Shown one piece after another: positions 414 to 62,366 of a stretch of DNA of 64,000 nt. Within the stretch, counting starts at the first letter, position 1, and each line of letters starts with the position of its first letter. Below the pieces are notes generated by a model. It was not told the origin of the DNA and searched no databases. It saw only the letters and a program-made list of their open reading frames with translations. This stretch comes from Paracoccus yeei ATCC BAA-599 (GTDB lineage Bacteria > Pseudomonadota > Alphaproteobacteria > Rhodobacterales > Rhodobacteraceae). Position numbers and translations under genes: made by a program. Location: NCBI RefSeq assembly GCF_000622145.1, contig NZ_KK211404.1, positions 1-64,000 on the forward strand, written 5' to 3'.

Positions 414-2801
414 CTAGCCCCGCAGCACGCCCCCGGTGGCCTTGCCGACCTTTTCGACGATCTTCGCCGAAACCGCCTCGATCTCGGCGTCGGTCAGGGT
501 CTTGTCCCTGGGTTGCAGGCGGGCGGTGATGGCGATGGACTTGCGGCCGTCCTCCAGCCCGGTGAACTGGTCGAACACCGTCACCCGCTCGATCAGCGCC
601 TTGTCGGCGCCGGCGGCGGCGTTGACCAGGGCCAGCGCCTCGACCTGCGGATCGACGACAAAGGCAAAGTCGCGCTCGACCGCCTGCAGGTCCGACAGCG
701 CCAGCGCCGGGCGCGAGGGCGATTTCACCTTGGGCAGCGGCACCGCCGCGATGCGCAGGGTAAAGCCCACCGCCGCGCCCTTGATCCCGAAATGGCGCAG
801 CACGCGCGGGTGGATCTCGCCGAAGGTCGCCAGCGTGTTCGGGCCCAGCGCGATGTTGCCCGCCCGGCCGGGGTGCCACCAGCCGTCCAGCCTGCGGTTG
901 ATCTGCGCTTTCGCCGGCGCGCCGATCTGGGCCAGCACCGCCTCGGCATCGGCCTTGGCGTCATAGATGTCCACCTTGCGGCGCGAGGCGAAGGGATCGC
1001 GCGGCGCGGTATGGCCGACCATGATCGCGGTCAGGTGCAGGTCCTGCTCTCCGGGCTCGCCGCCGCTGAACACCGGCCCGCATTCGAACAGCGCCAGGTC
1101 CATGAAGCCGCGCGCCTGGTTGCGCGCCGCCGCCGCCAGCAGGCCGGGCAGCAGGTCGGGGCGCATATGCGTCATCTCGCTGCTGATCGGGTTCTCGATC
1201 CGTACCGCATCGGACCCGCCGCCGAACAGCGCCGCCGCGGCCTGGTCGATGAAGCTGTAGGTGACGCATTCGTTATAGCCCAAGGCCGCCGCCATGCGCC
1301 GCGCCGCCGATTCCCGGCGCTGCAAGGGGGTCAGCACCGGGGCCGGCACGCCCGCCTGCGGGCGCGGCAGGGGCTGGCCCTGCAAGCCGCTCAGGCTGGC
1401 GATGCGCGCCACCTCCTCGACCAGATCGGCCGCGCCCTGCACGTCGGGACGCCAGCTCGGGACGAAGGCTTGCTGGCCCTCCAGGCGGAAGCCCAGCGCC
1501 TCCAGCGTGGCGCGCTGCCTGTCCTCGGGGATTTCCATGCCGACCAGGCTGGACACCTTGGCCGGGTCCAGCGGATAGCTGCGCGTCGTGTCGGGGATGG
1601 CGCCCGCCGTCACCACCTGCGACGCCTCGCCGCCGCACAGGTCCAGGATCATCCGCGTTGCCAGCTCCAGGCCCTTCTGGGTGAAGGCCGGGTCCGCACC
1701 GCGCTCGAAGCGATAGCGCGCGTCCGAGGTGATCTTCAGCGCTCGGCCGGCGGTAGCAATGGCGATCGGGTCCCAATAGGCGCTTTCCAGGAAGACCTCG
1801 GTGGTCTCCTCGGAACAGCCCGAAAGCTCGCCGCCCATGATGCCGGCAATGCTTTCCGGGCCTTGCTCGTCGGCGATCACCATGGTGCCGGGGGCAAAGG
1901 CATAGGTCTTGCCGTCCAGCGCCAGCAACTCCTCGCCCTCATGCGACGGGCGCACCACCAGGTCGCCCCGGACCTTGGCCGCGTCAAAGACATGCAGCGG
2001 CCGGTTCAGGTCGAAGATGAAGAAGTTCGTGATGTCGACCAGCGCATTGATCGGCCGCAGTCCGATGGCGGTCAGCCGCTTTTGCAGCCAGTCGGGCGAC
2101 GGGCCGTTCCTGACGCCCCGGATCAGCCGGCCGCTGAAGAACGGCGCCTTGTCCGCCACCTCGGGCGCGATGCGGATCCCGATGGGCGAGGCGAAGCCGC
2201 CCGGCACCGTGACCTCGGGAACGGGCTTCAGCGTGCCCAGGCCCCGCGCGGCCAGATCGCGGGCGATGCCATGCACGCCCAGCGCGTCGGGGCGGTTCGG
2301 GGTGATCTTGATCTCGATGACCGGATCGACCGCTTCGGGACGGTTCGCCGCCAGCCAGTCGACGAATTTCTCGCCGACCTCGCCCGAAGGCAGCTCGATG
2401 ATGCCATTGTGCTCGTCCGACAGTTCCAGTTCGCGTTCCGAGGCCATCATGCCATGGCTCTCGACGCCGCGGATCTTGCCCACGCCCAGCGTGGTGTCGA
2501 TGCCGGGAACATAGTCGCCGGGCTTGGCCAGGACCACGGTGATGCCGGCCCGCGCATTCGGGGCACCGCAGACGATCTGTTTCTCGCCCTCGTCCGTCAT
2601 GACCTTGCAGACCCGCAGCCGGTCGGCGTCCGGGTGCTGCACCGCCTCGATCACGCGCGCGATGGTGAAGGGGGCAAGTTTCGCGGCCGGGTCCGTCACC
2701 CCCTCGACCTCAAGGCCCAGGTCGGTCAGCGCCTCGGTGATCTCGTCCAGCGTGGCGGTGGTCTCGAGATGCTCCTTCAGCCAGGAGAGGGTGAATTTCA
2801 T
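414..2801 (-). CDS. pheT: Phenylalanine-tRNA ligase beta subunit
   Basis: This 795-residue protein has the full bacterial PheT length. It makes the alpha2-beta2 enzyme with PheS that charges tRNA-Phe in the cytoplasm. The start MKFTLSWLKEHLE is characteristic. It is followed by the tRNA-binding OB-fold (about residues 40-150), the B3/B4 editing region, the B5 domain and core, and a C-terminal FDX-ACB anticodon-binding domain rich in the usual RDFAFV and FTG motifs. pheS is not adjacent: it lies about 1.7 kb upstream on the same strand, with three opposite-strand genes between. A separate promoter for pheT is therefore likely. Confidence 0.97.
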   Translation of the reverse strand: MKFTLSWLKEHLETTATLDEITEALTDLGLEVEGVTDPAAKLAPFTIARVIEAVQHPDADRLRVCKVMTDEGEKQIVCGAPNARAGITVVLAKPGDYVPGIDTTLGVGKIRGVESHGMMASERELELSDEHNGIIELPSGEVGEKFVDWLAANRPEAVDPVIEIKITPNRPDALGVHGIARDLAARGLGTLKPVPEVTVPGGFASPIGIRIAPEVADKAPFFSGRLIRGVRNGPSPDWLQKRLTAIGLRPINALVDITNFFIFDLNRPLHVFDAAKVRGDLVVRPSHEGEELLALDGKTYAFAPGTMVIADEQGPESIAGIMGGELSGCSEETTEVFLESAYWDPIAIATAGRALKITSDARYRFERGADPAFTQKGLELATRMILDLCGGEASQVVTAGAIPDTTRSYPLDPAKVSSLVGMEIPEDRQRATLEALGFRLEGQQAFVPSWRPDVQGAADLVEEVARIASLSGLQGQPLPRPQAGVPAPVLTPLQRRESAARRMAAALGYNECVTYSFIDQAAAALFGGGSDAVRIENPISSEMTHMRPDLLPGLLAAAARNQARGFMDLALFECGPVFSGGEPGEQDLHLTAIMVGHTAPRDPFASRRKVDIYDAKADAEAVLAQIGAPAKAQINRRLDGWWHPGRAGNIALGPNTLATFGEIHPRVLRHFGIKGAAVGFTLRIAAVPLPKVKSPSRPALALSDLQAVERDFAFVVDPQVEALALVNAAAGADKALIERVTVFDQFTGLEDGRKSIAITARLQPRDKTLTDAEIEAVSAKIVEKVGKATGGVLRG

Positions 2802-2912: not shown

Positions 2913-2963
2913 GTCCGACGGCCGGTGTACGGCCTGTGTACGCGCGGTGTACGCCCGTCACGG
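2913..2963 (+). repeat. TGTAC array A: three TGTAC cores at 11-bp spacing
   Basis: TGTAC occurs at 2926, 2937 and 2948, exactly 11 bp apart. The array is preceded by GTCCGACG and followed by GTCACGG. A second copy at 26643-26693 matches at 45 of 51 positions, with every landmark at the same offset; a third, weaker copy lies near 38.8 kb on the other strand. One helical turn between identical cores suggests cooperative protein binding on one face of the DNA. This copy lies directly upstream of a plausible promoter for the first TM2 gene. Confidence 0.8.
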
Positions 2964-3029: not shown

Positions 3030-3341
3030 ATGGACACGCAACGCGAGATGCTGATCGAACAACGGGTCGCCAATGACGCGAAATCCCCCCTGGTCGCCTA
3101 TCTGCTGGCGATCCTGCTGTGGGGTTTCGGCGCACACCGGATGTATCTCGGCCGCTGGGTCAGCGGTCTGATCATGCTGGCGATGTCGGGCCTGGGCTGG
3201 CTGACCGCGCCCATCCTGATCGGCTGGCCGCTCCTGGGCCTGGTCTGGGTCTGGGCGGTGATCGACCTGTTCCTGATCCCCGGCATGATCCAGGAGGACA
3301 AGGACGAGATCCGCCGCAGGCTCGGCTCGGGCCTGTACTGA
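3030..3341 (+). CDS. TM2 domain membrane protein (copy 1)
   Basis: A 103-residue protein with a TM2 domain: a polar N-terminus, two predicted membrane helices (about residues 24-42 and 45-80), the GAHRMYLGR turn motif that defines the family, and the tail IDLFLIPGM. TM2 proteins have no settled biochemical role in bacteria. The start is supported by AAGGGAG just before the ATG. A paralogue at 4082-4408 shares the MLIEQR, AKSPL and DLFLIPGM blocks. The two copies flank an AmiS/UreI-type channel gene, and all three interrupt pheST. Confidence 0.85.
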   Translation: MDTQREMLIEQRVANDAKSPLVAYLLAILLWGFGAHRMYLGRWVSGLIMLAMSGLGWLTAPILIGWPLLGLVWVWAVIDLFLIPGMIQEDKDEIRRRLGSGLY

Positions 3342-4081: not shown

Positions 4082-4408
4082 ATGGCCCTTGATACCCACC
4101 AACAGATGCTGATCGAACAACGCATCAGCAATGAGGCGAAATCCCCGCTTCTTGCCTATCTTCTGCTGATCTTCGTGGGCGGCCTTGGCATTCACCGCTT
4201 CTATCTGGGGCGCACCGGCTCGGGCGTTGCCATGTTGCTGCTGCTGATCCTGGGCGCCGTCACCCTTCCGATCGGCGTGGGCCTGATCCTGCTGCTGGCC
4301 CTGGGCATCTGGATGCTGGCCGATCTGTTCCTGATCCCCGGCATGGTCAACCAGCAGCGCGACCTGCTGCGCCAAAGCCTGCGCAGCGAGTTTGCAGCGA
4401 ACGCCTGA
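4082..4408 (+). CDS. TM2 domain membrane protein (copy 2)
   Basis: A 108-residue TM2 protein starting MALDTHQQMLIEQR. The frame is open from 4022, but the ATG at 4082 aligns with the start of the paralogue at 3030 and is preferred. Two membrane helices, the GIHRFYLGR motif and DLFLIPGM are present. Similarity to copy 1 is strongest in the N-terminal cytosolic segment and the C-terminal tail, which suggests tandem duplication before or after the AmiS-type gene came to lie between them. The biochemical role is unknown. Confidence 0.83.
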   Translation: MALDTHQQMLIEQRISNEAKSPLLAYLLLIFVGGLGIHRFYLGRTGSGVAMLLLLILGAVTLPIGVGLILLLALGIWMLADLFLIPGMVNQQRDLLRQSLRSEFAANA

Positions 4409-26182: not shown

Positions 26183-26259
26183 ATCGTCGCGCCGGGGGGC
26201 GTGGCGCGCGCGTGGCGGCGGCGCTTGTCCTTGGCCCCGGCCTGTTTCATAGTGGCGGC

Positions 26260-26302
26260 GGGGACGGCCCCACCATCACGGTCAAGCGCGCGGGACGGCC
26301 CG
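26260..26302 (+). promoter_or_regulatory. Guanidine-II (mini-ykkC) riboswitch
   Basis: Two near-identical hairpins, GGGGACGGCCCC (26260-26271) and CGGGACGGCCCG (26291-26302), each present a 4-nt ACGG loop on a short GC stem and are joined by 19 nt. Tandem ACGR-loop hairpins are the defining signature of the guanidine-II riboswitch. AGGACAAGGA, the ribosome-binding site, follows at once and the gene starts 20 nt later. This suggests that guanidinium controls access to the Shine-Dalgarno sequence. The downstream gene is an SMR exporter, the standard target. Confidence 0.88.
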
Positions 26303-26321
26303 GCAGGACAAGGATTGTGTC

Positions 26322-26639
26322 GTGGCCTGGTTCTATCTTTTCACCGCAGGCATCCTGGAAATCGTCTGGGCCTTCGCCATGAAGAAATCGGCGGGCTTCA
26401 CCCTGCTGGTGCCCAGCATCGTTACCCTGGTCGGCATGGTGGCCAGCTTCGGCCTGCTGGCGCTGGCGATGCGCTCGCTGCCGCTGGGGACGGCCTATAC
26501 GGTCTGGACCGGCATCGGCGCGGTCGGCGCCTTCGTGCTGGGCGTCCTGCTGCTGGGCGAGGGGCTGAGCCCCGGACGGGTTCTGGCGGCGGCGCTGATC
26601 GTCGCGGGGATCGCGATGATGAAGCTGTCTAGCCCCTGA
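26322..26639 (+). CDS. sugE: SMR-family guanidinium exporter (SugE/Gdx type)
   Basis: A 105-residue, four-helix small multidrug resistance protein starting with GTG (MAWFYLFTAGILEIVWAFAM). Glu13 in the first helix (GILEIVWAF) is the universal proton/substrate residue, and the AMKKSAGFT and GTAYTVWTGIG blocks match the SugE/Gdx subfamily, whose characterised members exchange guanidinium for protons. AAGGA lies 7-8 nt upstream. The guanidine-II riboswitch just before it independently supports the substrate. It converges on urtE. Confidence 0.92.
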   Translation: MAWFYLFTAGILEIVWAFAMKKSAGFTLLVPSIVTLVGMVASFGLLALAMRSLPLGTAYTVWTGIGAVGAFVLGVLLLGEGLSPGRVLAAALIVAGIAMMKLSSP

Positions 26640-26642
26640 CGC

Positions 26643-26693
26643 GTCCGACGCGCGGTGTACGCCCCGTGTACGCGCGGTGTACGCATGTCACGG
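26643..26693 (+). repeat. TGTAC array B: three TGTAC cores at 11-bp spacing
   Basis: TGTAC occurs at 26656, 26667 and 26678, again exactly 11 bp apart, preceded by GTCCGACG and followed by GTCACGG at the same offsets as array A. It starts 4 bp after the sugE stop codon, between the convergent sugE and urtE genes. An ordinary promoter role is therefore less obvious here than at array A. Confidence 0.8.
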
Positions 26694-26764: not shown

Positions 26765-27475
26765 TCAGGCCGCCGCGCCCAGTCCCGCCAGCCGCGCCTT
26801 GAGCGTGTCGCGCGCCACCTCCGCGCGGCTGCCCGAGATAACCGCCCGGCCCCGCTCCAGCATCAGGAAGCGGTCGCCCAGGTCATAGGCGAAGTCGAAG
26901 AACTGCTCGACCAGCACGATCGCCATGTCGCCCCTGTCGCGCAAGCCCTTGATGACGCGGCCGATCTGCTGGATGATATTGGGCTGGATGCCCTCGGTCG
27001 GCTCGTCCAGCAGCAGGACGCGCGGCCGCGTGACCAGGGCCCGGGCGATGGCCAGCTGCTGCTGCTGGCCGCCCGACAGATCGCCGCCGCGCCGGTGGCT
27101 CATCTCGGCAAGCACCGGGAAGTGCTGGAAAATCTCCTCGGGCACCTGGCGTTCGCCGCGCGGCAGCAGGCCAAAGCCGGTCTCGAGGTTCTCGCGCACG
27201 GTCAGCAGCGGAAAGATCATCCGCCCCTGCGGCACATAGGCCAGGCCGCGCGCCGCCATGGCTTGGGCGTTGACGCGGCCCAGTTCCTCGCCATTCAGCC
27301 GCAGGCTGCCGCCCGACCGCGGGTGGCTGCCGGACAGGACCTTGAGAAGGCTGGTCTTTCCGACCCCGTTGTTGCCCATGACGCAGGTGACCTCGCCCGG
27401 CCGGGCGATCAGGTCGACGCCGTAAAGGATCTGGCTGCCGCCGTAATGCAGCGTGATTCCGGTCGCTTCCAGCAT
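26765..27475 (-). CDS. urtE: Urea ABC transporter ATPase UrtE
   Basis: A 236-residue ABC ATPase (LivF-like). Walker A GNNGVGKTS is at 34-42, the signature LSGGQQQQLAIARAL near 133, and Walker B RVLLLDEPTEG follows. The phrases ILYGVDL and GRMIFPLLTVRENLETG are typical of UrtE. It powers high-affinity urea import with UrtD through UrtBC. The ATG lies one base after the urtD stop. It is the last gene of the operon. Confidence 0.93.
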   Translation of the reverse strand: MLEATGITLHYGGSQILYGVDLIARPGEVTCVMGNNGVGKTSLLKVLSGSHPRSGGSLRLNGEELGRVNAQAMAARGLAYVPQGRMIFPLLTVRENLETGFGLLPRGERQVPEEIFQHFPVLAEMSHRRGGDLSGGQQQQLAIARALVTRPRVLLLDEPTEGIQPNIIQQIGRVIKGLRDRGDMAIVLVEQFFDFAYDLGDRFLMLERGRAVISGSRAEVARDTLKARLAGLGAAA

Positions 27476-38664: not shown

Positions 38665-38775
38665 GGCAGATCACCTTTCGTCCGGGCTTGACCATAGGGA
38701 CCGGATGCCAAGAATGAATTAACAGAACCGTGCCCGCCGCGTGACCGAAGGCCCCTCGGGGCGCCCGCACCGGGC

Positions 38776-38803
38776 GTACACCGCGCGTACACAGGGCGTG
38801 CAC
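38776..38803 (-). repeat. TGTAC array C: weaker third copy
   Basis: Read on the minus strand this site is TGCAC-n6-TGTAC-n6-TGTAC, once more with 11-bp spacing, including the same central GTGTACGCGCGGTGTACGC as arrays A and B. One core has changed from TGTAC to TGCAC. GTCACG lies about 30 bp further on rather than directly adjacent. It sits in a 397-bp gap between the 81-aa gene and leuC, pointing at the former. Confidence 0.7.
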
Positions 38804-38867
38804 CGCCGGTCCTCCGCCCCGGCCTGCCATATTGCCTGATGGCGAAAACCGGCGTAAAACGGCGCTC

Positions 38868-61544: not shown

Positions 61545-62366
61545 ATGTTCGCACAGCGTCGCAGCCGCAATCTGGTCGAGGCCGCGTTCACCACGCTGGC
61601 GCTGATCTATCACATCACCGCAAACAACCTGCGCAAGGGCCAGCGCAACGCCGTCGTGGGCCTTTTGATGACGGTCCTGCAGGCGGTCACGATGATCGCG
61701 GGCTTTTGGCTGATGTTCTCGATCCTGGGCGTGCGGAACTCGCCCATTCGCGGCGACTTCATCGTCTACATCATGAGCGGCATCTTCATGTTCATGGCCC
61801 ATGCCCAGGCCATCGGCGCGGTCGCGGGCGCGGGCAGCCCGACGAACCAGATGATGAAGCACGGGCCGATGAACACCGCCGTCATGATGGCGGGCGCGGC
61901 CCTGGCGGCGCTTTACCGGCAGACCTTCTCGGCCATCGTGGTGCTGTCGGCCTATCACTACCTGATCCAGCCGGTGCATATCGACAAGCCGCTGGCCTGC
62001 TACGGAATGCTGCTGATGGCCTGGTTCTCGGGCTGCTGCATCGGGCTGATCTTTCTGTCCTTCCGGCCCTGGTGGCCCGAAGGGTCGCAGGTGCTGACAA
62101 GCTTTTACCAGCGCATGAACATGATCTTTTCTGGCAAGATGTTCGTCGCCAACACCCTGCCGCTTTACATGCTGCACGCCTTTGCCTGGAACCCGCTGTT
62201 CCACATCATCGACCAGACGCGGGGCTTCGCCTTCATCAATTATTCGCCGCGCAATTCCTCGTTGAGCTATCCGCTTTACTGCATCGTGGCGCTGCTGATG
62301 ATCGGGCTGATGGCGGAATACGTCAGCCGCAAGTCGGTTTCCATCTCGACGCTCGCGGGGCGCTGA
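61545..62366 (+). CDS. ABC-2-type polysaccharide export permease (KpsM-like)
   Basis: A 273-residue membrane protein with about six helices. NAVVGLLMTVLQAVTMIAGF and ALYRQTFSAIVVLSAYHYL are in the style of KpsM/RfbA-type inner-membrane permeases that export capsule or O-antigen chains with a KpsT-type ATPase. No ATPase gene is adjacent; dnaK follows. The start MFAQRRSRNLVEAAF is chosen over a longer frame that runs through cysQ's upstream region. Confidence 0.75.
   Translation: MFAQRRSRNLVEAAFTTLALIYHITANNLRKGQRNAVVGLLMTVLQAVTMIAGFWLMFSILGVRNSPIRGDFIVYIMSGIFMFMAHAQAIGAVAGAGSPTNQMMKHGPMNTAVMMAGAALAALYRQTFSAIVVLSAYHYLIQPVHIDKPLACYGMLLMAWFSGCCIGLIFLSFRPWWPEGSQVLTSFYQRMNMIFSGKMFVANTLPLYMLHAFAWNPLFHIIDQTRGFAFINYSPRNSSLSYPLYCIVALLMIGLMAEYVSRKSVSISTLAGR

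Follow-up and report, generated by a model that had tools for sequence, protein, structure and literature searches.

The met boxes of MetJ and the heptads of the omega repressor are arrays of short boxes on which ribbon-helix-helix (RHH) dimers bind cooperatively; the boxes measure 8 bp in the first case and 7 bp in the second, and targets are few in both. ParR of R1 requires at least two 11-bp repeats (PMC9426499), and ParR architecture has been described (PMC5016525). In Brucella abortus the BrnAT complex of the BrnT/BrnA type II toxin-antitoxin system reduces expression from its own promoter, to which it binds (PMC5086665). In the RHH strand alternate residues face the bases, as do Lys18, Val20 and Arg22 of the Pseudomonas aeruginosa regulator AmrZ (PMC3325190).

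The window analysed here, which is the whole 64-kb stretch of DNA (G000:C9:1-64000 of a 4.43 Mb genome), carries short arrays that repeat at 11 bp. The likeness to MetJ and the omega repressor would lie in cooperative arrays of short boxes, and the difference in their 8-bp and 7-bp boxes and few targets. As with ParR and parC, the putative arrangement is that of an RHH protein on tandem direct repeats, to which a family match and the repeats themselves point; however, the centromere lies beside the par operon there, whereas G000 has 29 dispersed short arrays. The G000 protein resembles BrnA in matching the Pfam family BrnA_antitoxin, but about 28 further arrays are present in the same genome and no BrnT-like gene was found near the BrnA-like gene in 30 loci, where a simple six-frame signature rather than a profile was used together with the predicted neighbours, and where the downstream side in G000 is cut by a contig end. 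Because no such neighbour was found by this signature, a BrnTA module is not shown at the BrnA-like locus. AmrZ is likewise an RHH regulator that reads bases with strand residues, yet it acts on two half sites and not on 11-bp arrays, and re-spelling of a regulon is absent from the excerpt of PMC3325190 drawn on here.

The explanation considered highly likely is that a BrnA-like RHH protein binds the arrays and represses its own gene, and that its sites are re-spelled along with the residues of its ribbon. The kind of system is known, and the scale of genome-wide rewiring is unusual. It is rare to catch a full set of sites being rewired as the specificity of its regulator changes, and an orphan antitoxin-like family would gain a likely function.

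Three arrays in the window

Array A contains three TGTAC cores placed 11 bp apart (Table 1), as the original prediction had described them. The two distant copies that it had reported were also recovered: array B is identical to the 51-bp array A element at 45 of 51 positions, and the weaker array C, on the opposite strand, at 41 of 51 with one core mismatch (TGCAC). With up to three mismatches the triple pattern is matched 9 times in the window, where shuffles lead one to expect 0.04, and these 9 are the same three arrays, shifted and opposite-strand matches included.

Table 1. Arrays and neighbouring genes in the window
Feature	Position	Strand	Details
Array A	2913..2963	+	left degenerate box CCGACG; TGTAC boxes 2926, 2937, 2948 (triple 2926-2952); right end GTCACGG
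Array B	26643..26693	+	TGTAC boxes 26656, 26667, 26678 (triple 26656-26682)
Array C	38765..38813	-	TGCAC, TGTAC, TGTAC (38776-38802) and flanks
pheT (presumed from the protein family)	414..2801	-	ORF; divergent neighbour of array A
TM2-type membrane protein gene	3030..3341	+	ORF; name from the original prediction
SMR-type transporter gene (name presumed)	26322..26639	+	gene call
Gene with its stop facing array B, 82 bp distant	26765..27475	-	gene call

Array A is situated in the gap between the divergent pheT and TM2 genes, 77 bp ahead of the TM2 ATG, and the first box of array B begins 16 bp past the stop codon of the SMR-type gene. Upstream of the latter gene a Guanidine-II riboswitch match was noted at 26256-26303 (33.5 bits; gathering score 32), and a match to the Ruegeria cis2 sRNA (RF02645, 66.7 bits) is found at 62109-62255. 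The TM2-type gene is similar to a second small membrane-protein gene at 4106-4408, from which it is separated by one other gene; the two have the N-terminal motif QxMLIEQRxxNxAKSPLxAYLL in common.

Distribution of arrays in the genome and their gene context

The original prediction turned on genome-wide counts in excess of a control, and in this respect it is borne out by 35 occurrences of TGTAC-n6-TGTAC in G000 against 4 of the reversed pattern. The 35 pairs fall into 29 places, among which C8:200051 and C44:6370 have identical sequences and might, lying at contig ends, be a single place. A third box is seen in most G000 arrays once TGCAC is allowed, so that most have three or more boxes, with a repeat unit of approximately TGTACRNNCKG. 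Several arrays (L009, L022, L024, L027, L031 and others) are followed on their right by TCACAGCGAAAACCCCAGCAATTGCTGGG-like hairpins, and the inverted repeat GCAACGCNCGCNNNCGTTGC has 7 matches in G000 with at most one mismatch, all 7 within about 100 bp of an array. The same species is represented in the genome set by a one-contig genome (G356). The G000 loci resemble those of Paracoccus mutanolyticus, from which one array (L031/L045) differs in length by exactly one 11-bp unit; slower evolution of the cores between the two was not significant (3 of 185 core positions changed, versus 3-4% elsewhere).

Genes were called with a small, purpose-written codon model trained on the window. In G000 and its relatives 159 arrays were placed (91 between tandem genes, 30 convergent, 19 divergent and 19 in-gene), these counts including orthologous sites that are not independent. 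The original statement that the motif is not explained by coding applies to the three window arrays; elsewhere in the genome four arrays lie inside predicted genes. Of the arrays between tandem genes, 62 lie closer to the stop codon and 29 closer to the start. The median distances are 34.5 bp to the stop and 109 bp to the next start for forward pairs (n=50), and 25 and 82 bp for reverse pairs (n=41); 49 of the 91 arrays lie at most 31 bp past a stop codon, in both orientations. These stop and start distances argue against a promoter element as a general rule. The placement upstream of a TM2 promoter, as originally proposed, describes array A, one of the exceptions to the placement at gene ends, and does not extend to the arrays as a class.

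Their location after stop codons would also suit an RNA element, in which near-palindromic boxes form hairpins in 3′ untranslated regions, and some arrays do fold well (41 of 206 with z < -2; L004 with z -3.9). Folding is nevertheless weak on average (mean z -0.9 over the 206), the arrays occur in both orientations, no Rfam match at gathering scores was obtained for 14 array loci, and flanking stems are on average no better than permuted pairs, all of which makes such an element extremely unlikely. Hairpin arms as a general feature round the arrays were rejected, with a mean arm score of 5.22 versus 5.20 for permuted pairs (184 arrays). Scores of at least 9 were reached by 9 of these 184 arrays, whereas in the permuted pairs the number reaching this score averaged 4.1, with a maximum of 8; the 9 include the clear arms seen between rpoA and rplQ in three Paracoccus genomes (L010, L134, L153).

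If the arrays are bound by a protein, a promoter switch accounts less well for their orientation-free placement after stops than does a roadblock, an insulator or a chromosome organiser. A gene-end role as a bound roadblock, insulator or regional organiser, in preference to that of a promoter regulator, is offered tentatively and is on the doubtful side. The distribution raises the question of why a bacterium should need tens of arrays, many of them just after stops.

An orphan BrnA-like protein as candidate binder

An array stands 56-80 bp upstream of a BrnA-like gene in 7 loci from 7 genomes and 3 genera, and in all 7 it reads away from the gene. In G000 the distance is 80 bp, and the gene falls outside the window. 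The protein, 163 aa long in G000, matches Pfam BrnA_antitoxin (PF14384, RHH) with 55.3 bits in G000 and 48.0 bits in G344 (cut-off 26.1). A profile search (E<=1e-15) with profile A1, built from six proteins that were all found beside arrays, detected it in 62 of 295 family genomes, a set with nearly one genome per genus that includes three of the profile sources (G000, G191, G344). In the predicted monomer two helices (61-69 and 74-90) lie where expected. They follow residues 46-60, which contain the conserved xRVTIRLD and have no assigned structure; DSSP gave no strand in the monomer, and a structure comparison gave no match with Z>=2 among 9 aligned chains. Literature searches found no paper on the arrays described here or on BrnA in Rhodobacteraceae.

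The 11-bp period extends beyond the TGTAC genomes. Upstream of the BrnA-like gene in 30 loci obtained by a profile search, 11 bp is the strict best of the periods 6-20 in 22, shares first place in 3 and is surpassed in 5 (a count of 24/30 includes ties, 22/30 being strict); with the six TGTAC genomes removed the corresponding figures are 16, 3 and 5 of 24 loci. For comparison, 42 other genes of these loci were taken, among them divergent neighbours with which the BrnA-like gene shares its gap; 11 bp is best upstream of 12 of the 42 (Fisher 3e-4 against 22/30). The cores before the gene differ by genus, being TGTAC, ATGCA (ATGCAC), TATGG, GTCTGG or GTCTTC.

Direct repeats at 11 bp are typical of PhoB-type sites, and the arrays might accordingly be operators of another regulator, for example of the OmpR/PhoB type, with the BrnA-like gene merely one target among others. 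This is very improbable in view of the 11-bp period that precedes the BrnA-like gene across genera (22/30 strict) and of the ability of its ribbon residues to predict the core. The array binder is very probably the orphan RHH protein of the BrnA_antitoxin family, as judged from sequence. The cooperative binding by an unnamed regulator that was first proposed is supported, in the sense that binding is the likely reading and the regulator has a named candidate. One dimer would occupy each 11-bp box with its two-stranded ribbon laid in the major groove, and adjacent dimers would sit on the same face of the helix and bind cooperatively. The protein would repress its own gene from the array that lies 80 bp ahead of that gene, and it would also occupy the roughly 28 further arrays in G000, many of them just past stop codons.

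If a BrnA-like protein reads the arrays, the cores of its operators should recur genome-wide in the same genomes. Family scans found arrays of the predicted cores with two misses, the operators of G107 and G181, for which there were no genome-wide triples. The scans count exact triples only and thus give lower bounds for arrays of the scanned cores, and overlapping triples are counted, so that a four-box array counts twice. Exact TGTAC triples occur in 10 of the 295 genomes, TATGG triples in 16 (mainly G127 152, G205 71, G190 36, G109 26, G165 16, with 3 in G345), ATGCA triples in 18 (mainly G292 67, G092 38, G321 35, G144 26, G123 19, G151 17) and GTCT-type triples in 11 (mainly G235 23, G251 6, G137 3). 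In the 11 predicted genomes (G127, G205, G109, G345, G292, G092, G144, G151, G235, G251, G137) the reversed controls total 1.

Array-rich genomes were taken as those with three or more triples of any scanned pattern (TGTAC, TATGG, ATGCA or GTCT-type), a threshold picked after the counts had been seen. Of these 28, 26 have the protein (E<=1e-15), versus 36 of 267 others (Fisher 5e-18, a guide only, as the test ignores relatedness of genomes). Without the three profile-source genomes, 23 of 25 array-rich genomes have it (4e-16); the array-rich G309 and G134 have no BrnA-like protein at E<=1e-15.

The reversed TATGG control is itself rich in some genomes, as GGTAT triples (G342 52, G302 48, G277 23). 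Triples of GGTAT-n6 are found in G302, G342, G277, G211, G329, G179 and G321, and the GGTAT core recurs in the operators of G277, G179 and one G321 copy. The ribbon residues are Lys-Thr-Tyr in G302, G277, G179 and one G321 copy, and GGTAT is probably a fifth spelling. Nine genomes have at least three control matches; the protein occurs in five (G302, G277, G179, G321, G346), and at E<=1e-15 it was not found in G342, G211, G329 and G168.

Covariation of ribbon residues with the core and changed spelling at shared places

The residue at position 1 of xRVTIRLD varies with the core. All 15 loci with [AG]T[AG]CA operator boxes have Arg there, and the 7 with T[AC]TGG boxes have Lys without exception, the comparison using 22 of the 30 loci and omitting the unclassed G265, G285, G164, G081, G204 and G076 as well as the GTCTT-class G137 and G181. 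On the protein tree residue and core each change four times; the independent pairs number 4 on all branches and 2 on well-supported ones, numbers that do not suffice for a sign test. At position 5, proteins that go with TGTAC have Arg and those that go with ATGCA another residue (M, G, S, S, A or A); Asn at position 3 occurs only with GTCTT. Contact of AmrZ Lys18 with two adjacent G (PMC3325190) fits the pairing of Lys with GG cores.

Nine residue predictions fixed before the proteins were read were all correct. The newly read proteins numbered 20, and the automatic patterns assigned no operator class to 7 of them (one G190 copy, G302, G346, G131, G326, G200, G340); the prediction for G321 covered one of its three copies. 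In G190, where TATGG and ATGCA arrays occur together, one copy has Lys and one has Arg, as predicted, and no clear array was seen ahead of the gene of the Lys copy itself. A counter-case from outside the residue comparison is G204, in which Arg goes with repeats that contain GG but whose period is not 11 bp.

A number of array places, as identified by flanking proteins, are common to several species and genera, among them those by gltD, in the rpoA/rplQ gap, ahead of a chorismate-mutase-like gene, by lpd and between pheT and TM2. These places have the conservation of position on which the original prediction had staked itself, where scattered in-gene matches would have spoken against it. The names of genes at shared places, serA/serC and the ArfB-like and DUF3445-like genes below included, are presumptive. 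In the groups read, array orientation is usually retained; the pheT/TM2 array is reversed in P. limosus, G009 and G026. TGTAC arrays are present in P. aminovorans as well as in P. limosus. Among fetched rpoA-rplQ and pheT loci (30 each), an 11-bp array was found at the threshold used only in genomes with known TGTAC arrays and in G079, where it is of the CATATG type.

The same place may carry different cores, as seen in a comparison of 24 TATGG arrays. In the serA-serC gap both G265 and G176 have TATGG, and G316 has TGTAC; ahead of the ArfB-like gene TATGG is found in G109, and five other loci have TGTAC there; and the DUF3445-like gene has in-gene arrays about 11 codons apart, TATGG in G345 and TGTAC in two Paracoccus genomes. 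In the 10 genomes with exact TGTAC triples the spacers too are often spelled in a genome-specific manner (TGTACGCAAGA in G191, TGTACGGGTTG in G316, TGTACGGGGGG in G246).

Likeness of spelling within a genome is also what dispersed mobile repeats, MITE- or minisatellite-like, would produce if they settled at gene ends and spread in the genome with no cognate regulator. Several G000 copies share a right flank with the hairpin and the inverted repeat, five G246 copies have a longer left flank in common, and G000 and P. mutanolyticus differ in one array by a single 11-bp unit, as such repeats might. Against this, a number of positions are kept across genera despite different spelling. At one locus, in a glycosyltransferase-like gene, the in-gene array differs from array-less relatives by substitutions with no change in length (AVEGLRALGVRAVQVD in the array-less G011, TVYRLCTLGVRAVHVD in the array-bearing G026); this array would be a gain and not a loss. 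Mobile repeats would, moreover, predict neither the residue-core covariation nor an array before the regulator gene, and they are regarded as quite unlikely.

Under the preferred reading, in which the BrnA-like protein binds the arrays, a change in a ribbon residue would be followed by re-spelling of the array set while many positions are kept, and related bacteria seem to have rewired the whole binding network on several occasions. It is quite possible, if somewhat short of probable, that a former antitoxin, free of its toxin, is now a global DNA-binding protein that marks gene ends in Rhodobacteraceae with parC-like 11-bp arrays serving as roadblocks, insulators or nucleoid organisers, and that single ribbon residues switch its specificity, with tens of sites re-spelled in place, even within genes at a cost to protein sequence. 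With five or more core spellings, a short predictive residue code and shared positions, the family makes co-evolution of protein and site directly testable.

Some further features of individual genomes were noted. The common left flank in G246 (L218, L220, L223, L224, L225) measures about 190 bp in four loci and about 90 bp in L224. Viral contigs contain 82 array-like stretches, and 30 of the 80 listed loci match on both strands at one place, as simple or palindromic repeats do. In Palleronia aestuarii (L046, L053, L069, L079) the arrays are long, with some eight to twelve 11-bp units as judged by eye, and appear canonical at their right end, with degeneracy rising leftward.
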